41,922 nucleotides of DNA from a virus. The stretch lies in IMG/VR virus record IMGVR_UViG_3300045240_000009, positions 1-41,922 of that record; one strand, written 5' to 3'. The notes beneath the pieces are model-generated. The model made no database searches and was not told where the DNA came from. It saw nothing but the letters and a program-made list of their open reading frames with translations. This document shows, one piece after another, positions 5,813 through 40,933 of this stretch; position 1 is the stretch's first letter, and every line of letters begins with the position of its first letter. Made by a program: the position numbers and the translations under genes.

Positions 5813-6810
5813 AACCTTCGTTCGCTGCTGCTATCTTAGCGGCTGCGGCGGCTGAACCCGTGCTGCCGAGTGTGCAGCCGGGTTTGGTTCTCCATGCCGA
5901 TGGGGACTACTTTGCGTATGCCTGTGCAGGCAGCGATGAGTGTCCTCCCGAGGTAGCACGTAACGCTGTTGTCGAGCGATTGGCGAAAGCCCAACGTCAT
6001 GCAGGAGCAGAGCATGTCCTCATTCACCTGTCGCATCAGGCCACCACGAAGGGTGACCGTGGCCTCATTGCAACGGTCAAGCCGTACCAAGGTCAGAGAG
6101 ATGGTGGCCGCAAGCCGGTCAACTGGCGGTATCTGCGCGAGTTTCTTGAATCGCTACCGAACGTTTGCATCTCAGTCCACAGGGAAGCGGATGATTCCAT
6201 TGCCGAAGCTGCTCATTCACAGCCTGGATTGGTCGCTATCTATACGGCAGACAAAGACATGCGGATGCTTCCTGGTCTACACGTTGATTGGAAGTCCTAT
6301 GCCCTTACGAGGGTGGAGAGCGGACAGTATGATTGTCGACGAACTGACGACGCTGGAGACGAAGTAGCCTACGGGCTGCGCTGGTTCTGGCTGCAGATGC
6401 TGCAGGGTGATACAGCGGATAACATTCCTGGCCTGCCGAAGTGCACCCTCGACGGTAAGCAGAAGCTGTGTGGCGAGAAGACAGCGCAGGCTTTGCTGGC
6501 TCACTGCAATAACACGGACGATGCATTCGACACAGTCTCCGAGCAGTACGCTCACTACTATGGCGACAACTGGCCGACCATGTTCTGCGAGCAGGCCATG
6601 CTGCTGTGGCTCAGAGCAAAGCCCGAGGCGTTTATGACGGACTTCCTGCTGCATCCAACGCTGCTCACCCGTGAGTGGCCTGTGGTCTTGCGTCAGTTGA
6701 TCACGGCATCCAACGAAATTATCAAACGGGTGAAAGGAGTTAAGGATGAGGCTAAAAGCTACGGAAGTGAAAGCAGCGCGGGAACATCTGCTGATGGTGC
6801 AGAATGGTAA
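5809..6810 (+). CDS. 5'-3' exonuclease (T7 gp6-like, FEN/PIN fold)
   Basis: A 333-residue nuclease. LVLHADGDYFAY near residue 25 supplies the first metal-binding aspartates; HREADDSIAE and YTADKDMRML are the acidic clusters of the 5'-3' exonuclease family; QGDTADNIPGLP followed by GEKTAQALL is the helix-3-turn DNA-binding signature of FEN-type enzymes. It would remove RNA primers, degrade host DNA and prepare ends for recombination. The start is GTG 5809 in a GTGA overlap with the upstream gene. Its last about 21 residues are low-complexity and overlap the first 65 bases of the endonuclease VII gene. Confidence 0.92.
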   Translation: MKPSFAAAILAAAAAEPVLPSVQPGLVLHADGDYFAYACAGSDECPPEVARNAVVERLAKAQRHAGAEHVLIHLSHQATTKGDRGLIATVKPYQGQRDGGRKPVNWRYLREFLESLPNVCISVHREADDSIAEAAHSQPGLVAIYTADKDMRMLPGLHVDWKSYALTRVESGQYDCRRTDDAGDEVAYGLRWFWLQMLQGDTADNIPGLPKCTLDGKQKLCGEKTAQALLAHCNNTDDAFDTVSEQYAHYYGDNWPTMFCEQAMLLWLRAKPEAFMTDFLLHPTLLTREWPVVLRQLITASNEIIKRVKGVKDEAKSYGSESSAGTSADGAEW

Positions 6811-8673: not shown

Positions 8674-9230
8674 GCACGATCATTGAAGCGCTGCACGAGA
8701 AGCTGTTCCAGCACTCAGCATATAATGGGGTGATGTGTGGCGGTGCTGCACGGGACGAGCTGCTTGGGCGTGAGCCAAAGGACTACGACTTCGTGCTACT
8801 GAATGACGGCGACAAGTTGGATGTGTACGACATGATCAACGAGCTGAACGGCATCAGCGGCGTCCAAGTTGTTACAGTGTACGCCAAGGGTTACGATAAG
8901 GCGCAGTCAGAACGATTCGACTGGTGCATCAAGGCTGAGGTATGGCTTGGACTGCATTCAGGATTCGTCGATGTCGACATCATCAGCTTGAAGAAGCCGG
9001 TGTTCACTCCAGAGGATGTGATCGACACATTCGACTTTAGCATAAACCACGCCTACATCGGCCAGGACTTCAAGCCGGTTGCAGGTAAGCACTTCCCGCA
9101 GCCGGGCGACATCATCAAGGTGTTGCCAGAGGCAGAGCTGACCGGATGCCGCACAGCGCGTATGCGTGACAAATTTCCCGACTACATCTGGTCTGATGCA
9201 GTCGAAGCAACCTACAGGGCACTCGCATGA
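8670..9230 (+). CDS. Nucleotidyltransferase-fold protein
   Basis: A 186-residue protein whose N-terminus matches the pol beta/CCA-adding nucleotidyltransferase fold: MCGGAARDELLG is the GG(S/A)xRD-type loop and KDYDFVL the paired metal-binding aspartates, with a further DVDIIS strand providing the third acidic residue. Similar proteins occur in T7-like and phiKMV-like phages without a known substrate. The start is ATG 8670 (ATGA overlap) rather than the in-frame GTG 9 bases upstream. It could modify an RNA, protein or nucleotide; the sequence does not say which. Confidence 0.8.
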   Translation: MSTIIEALHEKLFQHSAYNGVMCGGAARDELLGREPKDYDFVLLNDGDKLDVYDMINELNGISGVQVVTVYAKGYDKAQSERFDWCIKAEVWLGLHSGFVDVDIISLKKPVFTPEDVIDTFDFSINHAYIGQDFKPVAGKHFPQPGDIIKVLPEAELTGCRTARMRDKFPDYIWSDAVEATYRALA

Positions 9231-18090: not shown

Positions 18091-18123
18091 AGCCCTGCTG
18101 CCATTTCGGTGGTGGGGCTTTTT
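18091..18123 (+). terminator. Rho-independent terminator after capsid/HNH
   Basis: Arms 18091-18102 (AGCCCTGCTGCC) and 18108-18119 pair over 12 positions, counting four G.U pairs, around a five-base loop, followed by TTTTT at 18119-18123. Position matches T7 Tphi, which sits just after the capsid gene and reduces transcription into tail genes. Confidence 0.88.
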
Positions 18124-18140: not shown

Positions 18141-18761
18141 ATGGCCTTTATGACCGAGCTGGACGTAGTAAATGATTGCTTGAGCACGCTCGGCGAATTG
18201 CCAGTCAACGCTCTGGATGACGACCACAACCTTATCGCTGCAGCCCGCCGTGCATTCAGAACATGCAACGTGCGCGAGCAAGCTAAGGACTGGTGGTTCA
18301 ATCGTGAAATCATTACCCTAGTGCGCGATGTAGACGACTACATCTGGACGCCTGCAGACGCAATTCGCTGCGACCCAATTAACAAGCACTTGAACCTGAT
18401 CCAACGCGGACGCCGCTTCTACGACCCGCAGAACGCCACGTACAAGATGCTGAATGAATCAGTAACCTGCTGGCTGGTTCGCCAGATTCCTTACGAGGAC
18501 TTGCCCCCAAGTGCACAGGTACTCATCAACATTTCCACAAGTCTCAAGTTCATGTCGGCATACGACGCGGACTCGACCAAGTATCGCCAGCTCGTTGCAG
18601 ATTATCAGGAAGCATACTCCACGATGAACTCAGAGCACATCCGCAACTCCGACAACAACTTGCTGGAGAAGCACGACACCCTTCGCACACTCAGCCGCAT
18701 TCGTGGCTACCGTAACGGAAGGCTTCTGACACCGCCGTACACCGGCTTCGAACAGGGGTAA
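18141..18761 (+). CDS. Tail tubular protein A, T7 gp11-like
   Basis: A 206-residue protein (T7 gp11: 196). The head MAFMTELDVVNDCLSTLGEL and the following AARRAFRTCNVREQAKDWWFN are strongly conserved in the family, as are the central VTCWLVRQIPYEDLP and the C-terminal TLSRIRGYRNGR. It forms the adaptor ring between portal and nozzle. AAGGAG lies 7 bases before the start, just downstream of the terminator. Confidence 0.95.
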   Translation: MAFMTELDVVNDCLSTLGELPVNALDDDHNLIAAARRAFRTCNVREQAKDWWFNREIITLVRDVDDYIWTPADAIRCDPINKHLNLIQRGRRFYDPQNATYKMLNESVTCWLVRQIPYEDLPPSAQVLINISTSLKFMSAYDADSTKYRQLVADYQEAYSTMNSEHIRNSDNNLLEKHDTLRTLSRIRGYRNGRLLTPPYTGFEQG

Positions 18762-28795: not shown

Positions 28796-28802
28796 CCTCG
28801 TG

Positions 28803-28830
28803 AGCCGCACCGTTGCTGGTGCGGTTCTTT
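28803..28830 (+). terminator. Rho-independent terminator after ejection gene
   Basis: AGCCGCACC (28803-28811) pairs with GGTGCGGTT (28818-28826) over nine positions including one G.U, around the loop GTTGCT, followed by CTTT. It begins seven bases after the gp16-like stop codon and its T tract merges with the phage promoter starting at 28828. Confidence 0.85.
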
Positions 28831-36143: not shown

Positions 36144-36272
36144 AAACGCCTGTAGTTGCCGGGTTCACATAATCAGAAATGACTTGTGGTTCGGAGGTAG
36201 CTAACAAAGTGTAGACTTGAGGGCCACATGGATGATCAGTGTTGCCTGCATACACTTCCGGTAATACCTTAC
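36083..36272 (+). repeat. Short direct repeat CCGG(T)AATACCTTAC
   Basis: CCGGAATACCTTAC at 36083-36096 recurs as CCGGTAATACCTTAC at 36258-36272, with one inserted T. Both copies are in the leader region before the first early gene. The function is unknown; one copy overlaps the tRNA-like segment. Confidence 0.5.
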
Positions 36273-36331
36273 GATAGGTCGCCTTACCGTGAAAGTTGTG
36301 CCTCCAGACAGATGACTGTGTGGTCCTCAAG

Positions 36332-36346
36332 CCTACATTTTGTAGG
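36332..36346 (+). promoter_or_regulatory. Leader hairpin before first early gene
   Basis: CCTACA-TTT-TGTAGG, a perfect six-pair stem ending 21 bases before ATG 36368, with the ribosome site AGAGGAA between. Several other early genes also have a compact hairpin immediately upstream of their ribosome sites. Confidence 0.6.
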
Positions 36347-36367
36347 ATAACTCTTAGAGGAATTATC

Positions 36368-36856
36368 ATGTCGAAAGAACTGATCGTAGATAGCAAACTG
36401 TTCGCTAAAGCCTGCGAATCCATCCAATCACGCGGTAAGGTGCTGGACGCTGACATCCAACATGCAGCACTGTCGGCAATCAACCATGCCGAGAAACACG
36501 GCGACATAGGGTTTGTCAATCGTCTGTATCTGGCGATGCCACAAGGGAGCCGCAAGGCTGCTCTGACAGACTGGCTGATTAGCTTCGGCAAGGTCTCTGC
36601 TAATGCTGGTGAGGGCAAGAAAGAAATGCCTTTCCTGTTTGATCGTGAGAAGCATACCAACATGGTTGAAGCTGCGGCTAACCCATGGTTCACTTTCAAG
36701 CTGGACAAAGCACCAGACGAAACGTTTGACATCATCGTCGCCTTGCGCCACATCATCAAGAAAGCACAAGGAAAGAACGTCGACGTACTCAGCCTGACAA
36801 AGGTTGAAAACTTGGTTAGCGAGCTGGCCCAGGCCGAGCTGTCCGCTGACGAATAA
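36368..36856 (+). CDS. Conserved early phage protein
   Basis: A 162-residue protein, first of the early block. The pattern of residues 35-75 (AALSAINHAEKHGDIGFVNR, then AMPQGSRKAALTDWLISFG) and a later NPWFTF is one I recall from a widespread family of uncharacterised phage early proteins, with HGD and AMP-x-G-x-R as its most constant parts. No catalytic motif or membrane segment. The ATG at 36368 is used because AGAGGAA precedes it; the upstream in-frame extension has none. An RNA element (36861-36908) follows the stop. Confidence 0.85.
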   Translation: MSKELIVDSKLFAKACESIQSRGKVLDADIQHAALSAINHAEKHGDIGFVNRLYLAMPQGSRKAALTDWLISFGKVSANAGEGKKEMPFLFDREKHTNMVEAAANPWFTFKLDKAPDETFDIIVALRHIIKKAQGKNVDVLSLTKVENLVSELAQAELSADE

Positions 36857-36860
36857 AGCG

Positions 36861-36908
36861 CAAGCTATAGTCTTACTTCGGTAGGACTATGTCGTGTGCT
36901 TTGCACGG
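36861..36908 (+). ncRNA. Structured intercistronic RNA element, copy A
   Basis: CAAGCTA (36861-36867), then hairpin 1: ten pairs 36867-36876 with 36881-36890 closed by a C(TTCG)G tetraloop, then TGTCGTG (36890-36896), then hairpin 2: CGTG 36893-36896 with CACG 36904-36907 around the loop TGCTTTG. The ribosome site TTGGAGG follows. Copies B and C have the same order with compensated base changes in hairpin 1. Confidence 0.75.
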
Positions 36909-36923
36909 TTATTGGAGGTCATC

Positions 36924-37058
36924 ATGAGCATCAACAAGAAGATTCAACGGGCCGTCAGCATTCGCAAGTCGCTGGGTGCAAAGGCCGCTGCCTACTACAT
37001 GCGTAAGCATGGGTTCAGCATTGAGAGCGCCGTGTGGTTGTTGGCACGGGCTAAGTAA
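36924..37058 (+). CDS. Short conserved phage early peptide
   Basis: A 44-residue basic protein beginning at ATG 36924 behind TTGGAGG. KAAAYYMRKHGFSIESAVWLLA fits a short helix-turn-helix-like pattern (AA-x-Y-x-R-x-x-G-x-S-x-x-x-A-x-W-x-L) common in very small phage proteins. Function is unknown; charge would suit nucleic-acid or host-protein binding. It is translated immediately downstream of RNA element A. Confidence 0.75.
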   Translation: MSINKKIQRAVSIRKSLGAKAAAYYMRKHGFSIESAVWLLARAK

Positions 37059-37263
37059 TTCCTGCAGGATAGGCGCAAAGCAAGGCCCATGGCATTCCAT
37101 GGCACCTACAGCGCGCCGGGCTTTGTTCACGCCGGACAGATAAACCGGGATTAGAGGCAAGCCTTATGTGTTGATGATAGATTACCTCGCCGATGTCAGG
37201 CGTAACACTACCCTTCAACACATAAGCCTTGCCTTTGCAAGGAACTTTATTGGAGAGGTAATC
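37059..37263 (+). promoter_or_regulatory. Long structured leader before 27-residue membrane peptide
   Basis: This 205-base gap holds several nested structures. GGCG-CAAAGC (37072-37081) pairs with GCTTTG (37120-37125) and, after four bases, CGCC (37130-37133); inside it CCATGG-CATT-CCATGG (37087-37102). Next, 37155-37174 pairs with 37215-37234 in 19 of 20 positions, enclosing a CGCC/GGCG mini-hairpin. Finally CCTTGC-CTTT-GCAAGG (37227-37242) shares bases with the long stem's right arm, so the two cannot form together. It ends at the ribosome site TTGGAGAGG. It may be an RNase III site or a regulatory RNA. Confidence 0.7.
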
Positions 37264-37347
37264 ATGCTTAAGTCCGTATCTATAATCGCCTTGATGGCAT
37301 GGGCTGTTGTCGCCGTGCGCATCATCGCCTTGATGAAAGGAATGTGA
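37264..37347 (+). CDS. 27-residue membrane peptide
   Basis: MLKSVSIIALMAWAVVAVRI followed by IALMKGM: a single membrane-spanning helix with Lys at both ends. ATG 37264 has TTGGAGAGG at ideal spacing. The next gene starts one base after its stop. Too short for homology; the exceptionally structured leader and good ribosome site support expression. It may alter the host membrane during early infection (inference). Confidence 0.65.
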   Translation: MLKSVSIIALMAWAVVAVRIIALMKGM

Positions 37348-37348
37348 A

Positions 37349-37735
37349 ATGAAACAGGTCACTATACTGGAGTTCTTTCTCTATGTGAGGAAGCTAGTAG
37401 ACGAACGTAGCCAGGAGCAGCGCGACTATCGCAAACAGTTCGCTGACAAGAAGATGAACACTTACCAGTCAGAACGCTGGCCGGTCTATGTGTGCGATCA
37501 GTTGATACATGCTAAGTTTGCTATGCGCAAATTAGGCATCTTCACTGATTCCCAGGACTCAGAGGCCATCTCGATATGGTACTCTGTCAAGCCCCGCAAG
37601 ATTCGCAAGGCCAGCACGGGCCTGGGCTGGTGGTCGCAGACTGAGCGGGGCAACAAGGCCCGGGGTGCAGCGCTGGACCGTATCATCCAGGGCCTGGAGG
37701 ATGATGAGCTGTTAGCCGCGCTGGGTGAATCATGA
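37349..37735 (+). CDS. Hypothetical early protein
   Basis: A 128-residue soluble, basic protein. The N-terminal half is helical with many charged residues (LVDERSQEQRDYRKQFADKK), and the C-terminal half contains GLGWWSQTERGNKARGAALD and an acidic helix (GLEDDELLAALG). No known domain recognised. AAGGAATG lies just before the start, and its stop overlaps the next start (ATGA). Its size and early position are typical of phage host-takeover proteins, which is inference only. Confidence 0.75.
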   Translation: MKQVTILEFFLYVRKLVDERSQEQRDYRKQFADKKMNTYQSERWPVYVCDQLIHAKFAMRKLGIFTDSQDSEAISIWYSVKPRKIRKASTGLGWWSQTERGNKARGAALDRIIQGLEDDELLAALGES

Positions 37736-37848
37736 GGATGTATCTGTACGTATTCGGCGGTATCGCCCTGCTCCTGGGCTTGGCAGTGTTGTCGCTGCTA
37801 GTCAAGGTGTGGGTCTACGGCCAGCTCTATCAGTGGTTATTCCAATGA
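37732..37848 (+). CDS. 38-residue membrane peptide
   Basis: ATGA-coupled to both neighbours. Residues 4-25 (YLYVFGGIALLLGLAVLSLL) form one membrane helix, followed by a short Tyr/Trp-rich end (YGQLYQWLFQ). No family recognised. It is part of a run of four membrane-associated micro-proteins in the early block. Confidence 0.65.
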   Translation: MRMYLYVFGGIALLLGLAVLSLLVKVWVYGQLYQWLFQ

Positions 37849-38051
37849 CACTCACCCTCCTGTTCACAGCCCTTGCACTTACAGCCAAGATTGGTGTGGG
37901 TGCATTCCTGTTCTGGTATCTGTGTGTCTGCGTGGCGCTACTTATGAAGGACAGCCTCACGTTCGGAGCATTCCTCCTGATCACAGCAGCAATCGTTGTC
38001 GGCATCTTCTCCTCCGTTGTGTTCGTCTTAATCTTAAAAGGTATCGTATGA
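37845..38051 (+). CDS. 68-residue membrane protein
   Basis: ATG 37845 lies in an ATGA overlap with the preceding peptide. Two or three predicted membrane helices: about residues 2-15, 18-34 (VGAFLFWYLCVCVALLM) and 40-66 (FGAFLLITAAIVVGIFSSVV). A single KD pair separates the halves. No family recognised. Its stop overlaps the next start. Confidence 0.7.
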   Translation: MTLTLLFTALALTAKIGVGAFLFWYLCVCVALLMKDSLTFGAFLLITAAIVVGIFSSVVFVLILKGIV

Positions 38052-38167
38052 ATCCTAAAGCCGCAGCAGTAGTTGCAGTACTCGCCCTGGTCGTGCTGTT
38101 TGCATGTTCAGGTTGTTCCGTTGTCGTGGTCGGTCATGCTACTGTGACCGCCACCCAAAGCAAGTGA
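38048..38167 (+). CDS. 39-residue putative lipoprotein
   Basis: The signal segment AAAVVAVLALVVLFACSGC contains the lipobox LFAC; cleavage would leave a mature peptide of only about 20 residues beginning CSGCSVVVV. The start is ATG 38048 (ATGA overlap) and the stop overlaps the GTG start of the next gene. An early-expressed small lipoprotein is a plausible superinfection-exclusion factor, as in T5 Llp, but no similarity was shown. Confidence 0.65.
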   Translation: MNPKAAAVVAVLALVVLFACSGCSVVVVGHATVTATQSK

Positions 38168-38313
38168 CCGTCGAAGAATTAATCCGGCAACTACGCCTTT
38201 GCGGTCAAAGGCAGGTAGTCAAAACATTCTGCCCTGACGCGGAAGAATGGTTACCTGTTACCGGATTCACGTATGGTGAGGACGGTGTGAAGTTATACAC
38301 CGACGAGGAGTAA
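38164..38313 (+). CDS. Small conserved-looking early protein, GTG start
   Basis: A 49-residue protein with GTG start at 38164 in a GTGA overlap. TVEELIRQLRLCGQ at the N-terminus and VTGFTYGEDGVKLYTDEE at the C-terminus resemble a short phage protein pattern (an initial helix, then a V-TG-x-x-x-x-x-x-x-x-L-x-TD beta hairpin). The gene product at 38609 has a similar plan. Function is unknown. Confidence 0.65.
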   Translation: MTVEELIRQLRLCGQRQVVKTFCPDAEEWLPVTGFTYGEDGVKLYTDEE

Positions 38314-38317
38314 GTAA

Positions 38318-38364
38318 CAAGCTACAGCCTTGCTAGTCAGGGCTGTGTCGTGGGACTTGCCACG
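38318..38364 (+). ncRNA. Structured intercistronic RNA element, copy B
   Basis: CAAGCTA (38318-38324), hairpin 1 of nine pairs ACAGCCTTG (38324-38332) with CAGGGCTGT (38338-38346) around CTAGT, the invariant TGTCGTG (38346-38352), and hairpin 2 CGTGG (38349-38353) / CCACG (38360-38364) around GACTTG. CTTG in this loop is complementary to CAAG at the element's start. The ribosome site AGGAG of the next gene follows. Confidence 0.75.
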
Positions 38365-38382
38365 TTATTCTAGGAGATTGAA

Positions 38383-38604
38383 ATGATTGACTACACACCA
38401 AAGCGCCGTGCTACTGTTGAGCAAGGCGTGAGTCTGGAAGCTGCCCGTGTCACCGAAGCAAAGCGCAAGCTGGCGAGCAACACAGCGTTCCGTCTTGCGT
38501 TTGCCAAGGCGTACTTCCGTGACACCACAGCAGCCGTGCAAACCAAGGTGCTCAACGCCTTGACGCAGGGAGCCGGGACTCGCACCAAGTACATGAGCCG
38601 GTGA
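38383..38604 (+). CDS. Hypothetical early protein
   Basis: A 73-residue basic protein, mostly helical (VEQGVSLEAARVTEAKRKLA, then AFRLAFAKAYFRD). No family recognised. ATG 38383 is preceded by AGGAG at 9 bases, directly downstream of RNA element B. Its charge suggests nucleic-acid or ribosome association, which is not demonstrated. Confidence 0.7.
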   Translation: MIDYTPKRRATVEQGVSLEAARVTEAKRKLASNTAFRLAFAKAYFRDTTAAVQTKVLNALTQGAGTRTKYMSR

Positions 38605-38608
38605 TACC

Positions 38609-38785
38609 ATGGGTATGACCTCTCACCAACTGGCAGCTAGTCTGCTGGAGGAACCGGACGTTCCTGTGTACGTCACAGACAACGAGACAGGCCAGCCCGG
38701 TCCAGTGACTGGTCTACTCAGACTCGAAGACAACTTGTTAATCTGCACTGACACCGCGTGGTCAGGCATGGTCTATCATAACTGA
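38609..38785 (+). CDS. Small early protein with beta-hairpin end
   Basis: A 58-residue acidic protein from ATG 38609; an internal ATG at 38615 is equally possible because neither has a strong ribosome site. SHQLAASLLEEPDVPVYVTD and PVTGLLRLEDNLLICTD follow the pattern of a common short phage protein (helix, then strands with P-V-TG). It resembles the product at 38164 in plan. Function is unknown. Confidence 0.65.
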   Translation: MGMTSHQLAASLLEEPDVPVYVTDNETGQPGPVTGLLRLEDNLLICTDTAWSGMVYHN

Positions 38786-38796
38786 AAGGAATTATC

Positions 38797-39156
38797 ATGA
38801 GTAAAACATTGAACACTCGCCTCACGATTACCGTGCCTGAATCCCGGTTCGATAGTAATCATTCGGAACGCTTTCTCCGTGCACTGGCCGCTGCTGCTGG
38901 TGGCTACACGGTGGTTGAGGGCGACGGCGGCTGGACCAACGGTAACGGCGACGTTATCGAGGAAGAGATTGTCGAGGTCACTGTCCGTTGGAATGACCAA
39001 GACAAGGAGCAGGACTTCGCTGTCAAGAAAGCAGTGCTAACGTACATCGTGCATCTGTTGAATGAGGGCGAGGAAGCTGTGTTGGTCTCTGAGCCAGTCA
39101 AGTCCCACCTCTTCTACGCTTCGGACATCCCGCACATCATCAAGGAACTGGCATGA
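38797..39156 (+). CDS. Hypothetical early protein
   Basis: A 119-residue acidic protein behind GAAAGGAATT. The N-terminus (TRLTITVPESRFDS) and the strand-rich middle (GGYTVVEGDGGWTNGNGDVI, then EEIVEVTVRW) suggest an alpha/beta fold. No catalytic motif. The stop is ATGA-coupled to the next gene. I do not recognise the family. Confidence 0.72.
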   Translation: MSKTLNTRLTITVPESRFDSNHSERFLRALAAAAGGYTVVEGDGGWTNGNGDVIEEEIVEVTVRWNDQDKEQDFAVKKAVLTYIVHLLNEGEEAVLVSEPVKSHLFYASDIPHIIKELA

Positions 39157-39284
39157 AACAGACAACTCCCACGCAGTATAAGCGCACTCCCTTCGTCCCG
39201 ACTGCGGGCATACCACCAGCAGGAACGCCGGTCGCCGCGCCGCGTAACTGCATCGTTAAACGTGCATTGAGGGCACCACAATGA
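39153..39284 (+). CDS. 43-residue Pro-rich basic peptide
   Basis: ATG 39153 and its stop are both in ATGA overlaps. The sequence is Pro/Thr/Ala-rich with a basic end (NCIVKRALRAPQ) and is probably disordered. No family recognised; the translational coupling is the main support. Confidence 0.55.
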   Translation: MKQTTPTQYKRTPFVPTAGIPPAGTPVAAPRNCIVKRALRAPQ

Positions 39285-40183
39285 CCAATACTATCCGACT
39301 TGCCAGAGTCAAGAAAGAACTGGAAGACGCCCGTGCTATTCGCGGCTCCACAATCCGTCGCTTAAAGGACGCTGAGGCTGCACTACTGCGGCACAACGAA
39401 GCCCTCAAGCATACCAAGTCGGTGGTCGACTCCCATAAGATAAACGTGGACCACCTGTACAACCAGGACTCTCTGGCCCTCAAGCGAACTCAGCAATTGG
39501 AAGGTGAGTTGAAAGAAGTTGAAGCCCGGGTCGAGGCTGATCGTCAGGCCGATGTCTTGAAGAGCGCACGGTATGCCCTGGCCTATGGAGTGGGCTACGC
39601 TGACTTGCTAAATCTGCTGAATAGCTACCCGCCCACCAAGCTGCAGGAGACAGCGATGCAGCAGTGGGAGCGCAAAGAACGTGAGCGCGAGCAGCATGCA
39701 GCCTTCGTCAAGATGTGGGAAGCGATCAAGAATGATCCGTGCGGTATCTACACTGGTCCGGTCGGCCTTGCCTACACCGGAACCATGACAGGCCGGTTCA
39801 CCGTCAACGTCCCGACGATTATCGACATCCCGAAGAAGCGGGAAGGTGCTGCGGCCTACGCTGTGATGGGCACGGAGAACCCACACACAGGCGCTGGCGG
39901 CGTTCGCAAGTCAAGCCAAGGGGATAACTACCCGTGGGTTATTCAACGCCGTGAGCACGGTGTATTCAAGGCTGGTGTGGCATCGACCTACACCTGGGAA
40001 GCGCTGCACCCTGGCATCAACCATATCACCGTGGGCATCCCGACATACGACGATGCCCTGCGTGTGATCCAGTATGCAGAGCATCACAACAAGCTCAACG
40101 GCAATAACTACGGCACTCTGCTGGGCCGTAGCCGCGACTGGAAAGAGCTGGGCGTGGCGCTCACCGGCTGGAAATTGAAGTAG
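39281..40183 (+). CDS. Large orphan early protein: coiled coil plus unknown C-terminal domain
   Basis: A 300-residue protein, the largest in the early block. Residues 1-95 form a long coiled coil (RVKKELEDARAIRGSTIRRL, then QQLEGELKEVEARVEADRQA). Residues 120-145 are a highly charged helix; the C-terminal 150 residues form an alpha/beta domain with TMTGRFTVNVPTIIDIPKKR, GGVRKSSQGDNYPWVIQRRE and GINHITVGIPTYDDALRVIQ. No known fold is evident to me. RNA element C begins immediately after its stop. The coiled coil suggests an oligomeric or host-binding protein. Confidence 0.78.
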   Translation: MTNTIRLARVKKELEDARAIRGSTIRRLKDAEAALLRHNEALKHTKSVVDSHKINVDHLYNQDSLALKRTQQLEGELKEVEARVEADRQADVLKSARYALAYGVGYADLLNLLNSYPPTKLQETAMQQWERKEREREQHAAFVKMWEAIKNDPCGIYTGPVGLAYTGTMTGRFTVNVPTIIDIPKKREGAAAYAVMGTENPHTGAGGVRKSSQGDNYPWVIQRREHGVFKAGVASTYTWEALHPGINHITVGIPTYDDALRVIQYAEHHNKLNGNNYGTLLGRSRDWKELGVALTGWKLK

Positions 40184-40231
40184 CAAGCTACTGCCCTGTG
40201 ACAGAGGGCAGTGTCGTGCAACTTCCGCACG
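40184..40231 (+). ncRNA. Structured intercistronic RNA element, copy C
   Basis: CAAGCTA (40184-40190), hairpin 1 of eight pairs ACTGCCCT (40190-40197) with AGGGCAGT (40205-40212), TGTCGTG (40212-40218), and hairpin 2 CGTGC (40215-40219) / GCACG (40227-40231) around AACTTCC. The element starts at the first base after the upstream stop codon; the ribosome site GAAAGG follows. Confidence 0.75.
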
Positions 40232-40251: not shown

Positions 40252-40674
40252 ATGGCACAAGTCAACGTCGCAGCACTGCAAAAGAAATTGGAATCCCTGC
40301 GTTCGCAAGTCCAGAACATCGAAGCTCAGATCGCAGCAGCAAATAAGTTCGGCAACATTGAAGTTGGTGGCACTGTTGGCTTCGTCTTCGGTCGTGGCGA
40401 GAACAAGAAGAACCTGTCCGGCAAAGTCCTGGGCGTGGGCACCCTGGAAAATGGTGTGGCTTCCCTGGCTGTGCAATTGGGCAGCGGCCTGGATGTCAAG
40501 GTCTTGCGCATCCCGCAGTCCACAGTCAATGGCTATGTCCCACTGATTATCGACGAGCTGACATCGACTGACGTTACCCTGGCCGGTGGTCCGGTCGGTG
40601 ATGCAGCCTCTGAACCAGAAGCTGTTGGCACTGACGGCACGATCAACGCTGACGCCTTATTGGCGGGTGCCTAA
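40252..40674 (+). CDS. Early protein with N-terminal coiled coil
   Basis: A 140-residue protein. Residues 5-32 are a coiled coil (ALQKKLESLRSQVQNIEAQI), and residues 38-95 a small beta-rich domain (VGGTVGFVFGRGENKKNLSG). The C-terminal 40 residues are acidic and probably flexible. ATG 40252 was chosen over the in-frame TTG at 40246 because of its spacing from GAAAGG. I recall similar two-part proteins in other phages but no function. It follows RNA element C. Confidence 0.75.
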   Translation: MAQVNVAALQKKLESLRSQVQNIEAQIAAANKFGNIEVGGTVGFVFGRGENKKNLSGKVLGVGTLENGVASLAVQLGSGLDVKVLRIPQSTVNGYVPLIIDELTSTDVTLAGGPVGDAASEPEAVGTDGTINADALLAGA

Positions 40675-40685
40675 GTTAGAGCTAA

Positions 40686-40708
40686 CCCTGTTCGGCTTTA
40701 GGACAGGG
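40686..40708 (+). promoter_or_regulatory. Leader hairpin with GGCTTTA loop
   Basis: CCCTGTTC (40686-40693) pairs with GGACAGGG (40701-40708) over eight positions with one T.G, around the loop GGCTTTA. GAGCTAA precedes it. It lies between a stop codon and the ribosome site AAGGAG, and shares the CTT loop and upstream GCTA with the three two-hairpin RNA elements. Confidence 0.6.
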
Positions 40709-40735: not shown

Positions 40736-40933
40736 ATGCGTGGAACTGCCGACCGCTCCGATGTGTACCCGTACCGGGCCATCGAAGTCAAACCAAACCT
40801 GCCATTCTATCAAGGCCACTGGAAAGTTTTCAACGTGGCGAAGCAAGAGGATGCGCTACCAACTCCCTTCCCAACTGAGGCTCTTGCTATTGCAGCAGCC
40901 CACACCCTCAAGCAGTACGAGGATGCACGATGA
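40736..40933 (+). CDS. Small hypothetical early protein
   Basis: A 65-residue protein from ATG 40736, behind CAAGGAGAA. YPYRAIEVKPNLPFYQGHWKV forms predicted strands, then a helix (TEALAIAAAHTLKQYEDA), a plan reminiscent of small dsRBD-like or DUF1508-like folds but without a convincing motif. Its stop overlaps the next start (ATGA). Confidence 0.7.
   Translation: MRGTADRSDVYPYRAIEVKPNLPFYQGHWKVFNVAKQEDALPTPFPTEALAIAAAHTLKQYEDAR

Follow-up and report, generated by a model that had tools for sequence, protein, structure and literature searches.

A repeated long hairpin with an AGCU/GUCG internal loop as a probable RNase III processing signal in the early region of a T7-like phage

What kind of signal does a phage place three times among its early genes, each time in the gap that separates a stop codon from the following ribosome-binding site (RBS)? 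The question is raised by a viral record of 41,922 bases (IMG/VR record IMGVR_UViG_3300045240_000009; its whole length is called the window here), which belongs to a T7-like phage (autographivirus) and encodes a DnaB-type helicase, a family A DNA polymerase, a head-tail adaptor, a terminase and a single-subunit RNA polymerase that is at most 58% identical to those of known autographiviruses. The three copies of the element span 3.4 kb of the early region, 5′ of a primase gene that spans the record ends, and no further copy is present elsewhere in the 41.9-kb record on either strand. A preliminary description of this locus proposed an RNA family with two hairpins and a pseudoknot, and several of its observations are reproduced exactly: CAAGCTA at 36861, 38318 and 40184, followed by a first hairpin and then by TGTCGTG, the covariation of hairpin 1 among the three copies, and the intergenic placement of each. 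The architecture, in contrast, has to be redrawn, and the redrawn element is probably a signal for RNase III to process the polycistronic early mRNA.

The conserved fold is one long hairpin, which consists of a lower stem of eight pairs (P0), an internal loop formed by AGCU and GUCG, and an upper stem, the former hairpin 1. In the window copies, which are 47–48 nucleotides (nt) long, the eight positions of P0 are followed by the 4 × 4 loop and an upper stem of 9–11 pairs (table 1). The boundaries proposed earlier omit the 5′ strand of the lower stem, which starts about 6 nt further upstream and overlaps the upstream stop codon. The sequences of the upper stem differ among all copies. Conservation is highest in the internal loop and exceeds that of either stem: AGCU is invariant in 13 of 13 elements, and the sole departure from GUCG is GACG in f20/f30. 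RNAfold pairs the central G and C of this loop, so that it may be read as an A·G mismatch, a G-C pair, a C·U mismatch and a possible U·G wobble within a nearly continuous helix. Copy 3 was also recovered as a 24-nt inverted repeat. Plain folding energies of 60-nt segments fail to separate the sites from coding sequence, whereas stem length does separate them.

Does this fold extend beyond the window? The window region itself has no DNA-level match among 50,697 phage records, and the matches listed for degenerate IMG/VR patterns with 14–16 fixed bases are mostly due to chance. Scans of IMG/VR with degenerate patterns gave L106, L251 (same sequence as L106) and L254, the latter two from an 18-base pattern, and L254 led to the Xanthomonas phages F5, NED111, f20-Xaj and f30-Xaj and to the NUT phages. 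Helicase-based retrieval of related early regions, combined with a structural descriptor that gives 0–3 matches in simulated sequence as large as the searched data, added L302, L317 and L360. A covariance model (CM) of nine elements recovers the held-out L106 (E = 6.6e-8) and brings in the new members L346 (E = 2.6e-4) and L345 (E = 0.003); the weak CM matches L300, L305, L356 and L320 look like chance and were discarded. Covariation is strong, and the fold is shared by Xanthomonas phages and by five divergent phages known from metagenomes or isolates.

The main evidence for the fold is the covariation count on 13 elements, the later and larger of the analyses. Paired cells amount to 90.4%, whereas shuffling gives 62.2% and sliding the partners by 1–3 columns no more than 41%; two-sided changes occur in 14 of 16 pairs, the covariation score is reached by none of 500 shuffles, and a count on 11 elements gives the same result. 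Covariation is present in both stems, and each P0 pair shows two-sided change in some element. Two other tests were tried successively on related sequences, and their p-values are indicative only. In an in-register test of P0 (p = 0.0015), the bases 5′ of an element pair better with the downstream strand of that element than with the downstream strands of the others; in a permutation of duplex energies, longer flanks give p of 0.013–0.035, and 12-nt flanks give p of about 0.5, which is uninformative because the constant part dominates.

Where does this leave the second hairpin and the pseudoknot? Hairpin 2, described as CGTGX..XCACG, can indeed form in the three copies, as it can in all Xanthomonas-group relatives, but as an alternative pairing outside the conserved fold: its 5′ arm belongs to the 3′ strand of P0, and therefore the two cannot coexist. 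It has no covariation support of its own (p = 0.11), because its sequence is nearly invariant. It is absent from L302, L360, L345 and L346, all of which keep P0, and in L317 no more than a shifted, partial form is possible; as a conserved core, hairpin 2 was therefore rejected. The pseudoknot, which was to join the AAG of the leading CAAG to a CTT in the loop of hairpin 2, is rejected because the CTT is found in the three window copies only and in 0 of 10 homologues, whose loops read GACTG, AATCG or AGTGG. In the window copies the CTT pairs better with the AAG just 5′ of the element as first reported, in the outer part of P0 (AAAGCGCA:UGUGCUUU in copy 1). What stands of the proposed RNA family is a structured, covarying element and possible processing site, whereas homologues keep one long hairpin in place of two hairpins and a pseudoknot.

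A hairpin of this size and placement has known counterparts. The RNase III sites of T7 and T3 were at first set aside as longer simple hairpins, wrongly, since the T3 sites have the same size and shape as the elements. The T3 record annotates five RNase III recognition sites, which are imperfect hairpins of 40–54 nt with a lower stem, an internal loop and an upper stem, and which end 20–37 nt before the next start codon; the window copies, with the length given above and 22–28 nt to the start codon, lie within both ranges. Like R0.3, R0.5, R1, R1.1 and R1.3 of T7/T3, they form a series of intergenic sites in one early transcript with an upper stem of about 8–12 pairs, and the overlap of P0 with a stop codon resembles those T7/T3 sites that start at or just after one (T3 R0.5 and R1 begin 0–3 nt from the upstream gene end). 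At the positions reported for the T7 RNase III sites by Dunn and Studier 1983, T7 sequence also folds like the window elements. A descriptor of GCU, hairpin and GUC, taken from the window and built without T7, matches T7 (39.4 kb) once only, at a hairpin of 12 pairs (6417–6449) just 5′ of gene 1.3 (start 6475), the place of T7 R1.3; in 20 simulated T7 genomes it has no match with at least nine pairs. T7 R1.3 has the GCU/GUC core of the internal loop in common with the window elements. Rfam gives no gathering-score match in the window and only tRNAs in the relatives; the T7/T3 sites likewise have no Rfam match, so absence from that database says little. Seven or more families without relation to one another are represented among the genes 3′ of the 13 elements, which fits a generic processing signal rather than a gene-specific regulator.

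The transcript is computed to fold into an almost continuous helix of 21–24 steps, about two helical turns, made of P0, the AGCU/GUCG loop and the upper stem with its small loop. By analogy with T7, host RNase III would cut the 3′ strand within the internal loop or directly beside it, approximately at GU^CG. The upstream mRNA would be left with hairpin 1 as a 3′ cap, and the downstream gene would receive its own mRNA, with the start codon about 30–40 nt from the new 5′ end. Computation shows the fold, how it is conserved and placed, and its resemblance to annotated T3 sites; cleavage, the cut position and an effect on the mRNA are inferred. The element is best described as a variant of the T7-type RNase III signal that is distinguished by its internal loop and, in one branch, carries an alternative hairpin as well. 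If so, RNase III sites that punctuate early mRNA, documented mainly in T7/T3, would also occur in divergent autographiviruses with other hosts, and the AGCU/GUCG signature together with the covariance model could be used to annotate such sites.

The alternative hairpin could have a part in this mechanism. In elements that have hairpin 2, cleavage would release the 5′ arm of this hairpin from P0 and allow the hairpin to fold at the new 5′ end, where it is a plausible stabilising cap. It is conceivable, although we would sooner bet against it, that the element is a two-state signal activated by the cut: in the uncut RNA, P0 holds the 5′ arm of hairpin 2, and cleavage in the AGCU/GUCG loop yields hairpin 1 as a 3′ cap and hairpin 2 as a 5′ cap. 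One 50-nt element would then make both protected ends, and a 5′ cap released in this way would offer a compact natural module for stable monocistronic mRNAs.

Several points weigh against the assignment to RNase III. T3 R1.3 has no GCU/GUC loop, and most T7/T3 sites carry a CUCA/UAUGA-type internal loop in place of the nearly invariant AGCU/GUCG. The coliphage upper-stem sequence AAGGUC..GGCCUU is not found in the window elements; it is typical rather than required, as T3 R1 carries ACAGGUC..GGCCUGA. Among the T7/T3 folds we noticed no alternative resembling hairpin 2, and hairpin 2 of the Xanthomonas group is superfluous for RNase III recognition. Many related autographiviruses were searched and contained no recognisable copy, so the signal is not universal within the group. 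Finally, recognition by RNase III does not as a rule depend on a particular sequence in the internal loop, and the strict conservation of AGCU/GUCG therefore demands more than generic recognition of double-stranded RNA.

Because of this conservation, the main rival is a specific RNA-binding protein of phage or host that would recognise the AGCU/GUCG loop and regulate the translation or stability of several early genes as a regulon, without RNase III cleavage. On the one hand, the loop is better conserved than either stem and the elements stand just 5′ of ribosome sites. On the other hand, the ribosome site lies outside both folds, the following genes are mostly unrelated, no candidate protein was identified, and it is the T3 RNase III sites that the elements match in size, shape and placement; we consider such a regulon unlikely.

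A two-state RNA switch between P0 and hairpin 2, set by a signal or by translation of the upstream gene (attenuation or translational coupling), is somewhat less probable still. The two pairings share one strand, and the elements of the window and of the Xanthomonas group can form either; moreover, a terminating ribosome would melt P0, since its 5′ strand overlaps the upstream stop codon. Hairpin 2, however, shows no covariation itself and does not occur in divergent members, and the elements have neither a U-tract terminator nor a sequestered ribosome site.

The possible two-hairpin fold in an early phage transcript also recalls the antiterminators putL and putR of phage HK022, two elements of about 70 nt that lie directly 3′ of an early promoter or about 270 nt from one (PMC9378689). 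As put-like elements, the two hairpins would bind the RNA polymerase of the host and prevent termination among the early genes. This region is expected to be transcribed by the host polymerase, and hairpin 2 is conserved in the Xanthomonas group. Unlike the promoter-near HK022 pair, the window has three intergenic copies, each beside a start codon, and its conserved fold is one long hairpin for which hairpin 2 is dispensable, as the four relatives that keep P0 without it illustrate; a put-like role is accordingly very doubtful. That the copies are chance or degenerate repeats without function hardly deserves consideration and is refuted as far as sequence allows, for although the window itself holds only three copies, no shuffle reaches the covariation score, distant phages conserve the fold and the simulated controls give 0–3 matches.

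Table 1. Positions of the three copies, their parts and adjoining genes in the window, and loci of a second leader RNA in other phages (ORF, open reading frame).
Feature	Position	Strand	Evidence or remark
Copy 1, whole long hairpin	36855–36902	+	Fold −22.1 kcal/mol; P0 8/8 pairs; covariation; CM 51.4 bits (copy was in model)
Copy 1, parts	P0 5′ strand 36855–36862; AGCU 36863–36866; hairpin 1 36867–36890 (cUUCGg loop); GUCG 36891–36894; P0 3′ strand 36895–36902	+	
Copy 1, alternative hairpin 2, CGTGT-GCTTT-GCACG, mutually exclusive with P0	36893–36907	+	Sequence; among homologues kept in Xanthomonas group only
Copy 2, whole long hairpin	38312–38358	+	Fold −18.9 kcal/mol; P0 6/8 pairs; CM 55.8 bits (copy in model)
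Copy 2, parts	P0 5′ strand 38312–38319; AGCU 38320–38323; upper stem-loop 38324–38346; GUCG 38347–38350; P0 3′ strand 38351–38358	+	
Copy 2, alternative hairpin 2, CGTGG-GACTTG-CCACG	38349–38364	+	Sequence
Copy 3, whole long hairpin	40178–40224	+	Fold −21.6 kcal/mol; P0 7/8 pairs; CM 53.2 bits (copy in model)
Copy 3, parts	P0 5′ strand 40178–40185; AGCU 40186–40189; upper stem-loop 40190–40212; GUCG 40213–40216; P0 3′ strand 40217–40224	+	
Copy 3, alternative hairpin 2, CGTGC-AACTTCC-GCACG	40215–40231	+	Sequence
Gene 3′ of copy 1, 44 amino acids, function unassigned	36924–37058	+	ORF with RBS; start 22 nt past hairpin
Gene 3′ of copy 2, 73 amino acids, function unassigned	38383–38604	+	ORF with RBS; start 25 nt past hairpin
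Gene 3′ of copy 3, 140 amino acids, early protein, function unassigned	40252–40674	+	ORF with RBS; start 28 nt past hairpin
Second leader RNA loci	L269 2200–2320; L268 2134–2251; L277 6830–6930; L273 2488–2640; L363 2500–2640; L364 2500–2600		

Related phages carry other structures in comparable places. A second conserved leader RNA of Xanthomonadaceae phages consists of a hairpin such as GTGCCCTTCGCAAGAGGGGCCAC, after which a long stem closes 60–100 nt. It has no Rfam match and also occurs near primase genes in phiL7, Valrath and BUCT603, phages that are not counted among the autographiviruses. The long-stem leader elements of XAJ24, Titan-X, DoCa7, phiL7 and BUCT603 occupy the same kind of place as the window-type elements, 5′ of early genes, with a GNRA hairpin and the long stem where the AGCU/GUCG hairpin stands in the latter. 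The elements of XAJ24, Titan-X, DoCa7 and phi31 and the second f20 site end in the same hairpin 2 (CGTGCNNNNGGCACG). In NED111 and Titan-X (L281 1109–1190, L268 2130–2290), hairpin 2, the leader and the start of the downstream gene are identical and the part 5′ of hairpin 2 is of two kinds, which looks as if a processing module had been exchanged. SB3 (L267 3373–3433), SB4 (L367 ~2501–2563) and SB5 (L271 1408–1465) have the same hairpin 2, with AC/UG replacing AGCU/GUCG and a lower stem GUAUG:CGUGC plus a further outer stem; this form is a sister type of the same element. In L106, directly after the element, the leader plus start is tandemly duplicated (8690–8760, − strand; ACCAACGGAAGTCAGACCATGAATATCGAA twice).

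Within the whole window, only eight + strand hairpins are of comparable strength, and five of them lie between genes, namely the three copies and two intrinsic terminators. The terminators, each a strong stem plus T tract, lie in the late region at 18091–18119 and 28802–28827, before genes at 18141 and 28865. Intrinsic termination was rejected as the identity of the copies themselves: no U tract follows copies 1 and 3, and copy 2 alone is followed by a weak TTATT. A long inverted repeat at 36194–36353 (35-nt arms, 80% complementary, 90 nt between them) lies just 5′ of the early gene at 36368, and is possibly another processing site; homologues of this gene in L106, L254, L345 and L346 are preceded by the AGCU/GUCG hairpin instead. 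A further repeat at 37155–37234 (20-nt arms, 95% complementary, 40 nt between them), in the gap 5′ of an ORF near 37265, has a layout like that of the long-stem leader elements of Xanthomonas phages. Lastly, an 8-pair hairpin, CCCTGT..ACAGGG, followed by ATTGTATTTC, is located at 40686–40708 between the genes ending at 40674 and starting at 40736, and could be a weak terminator or another processing hairpin.

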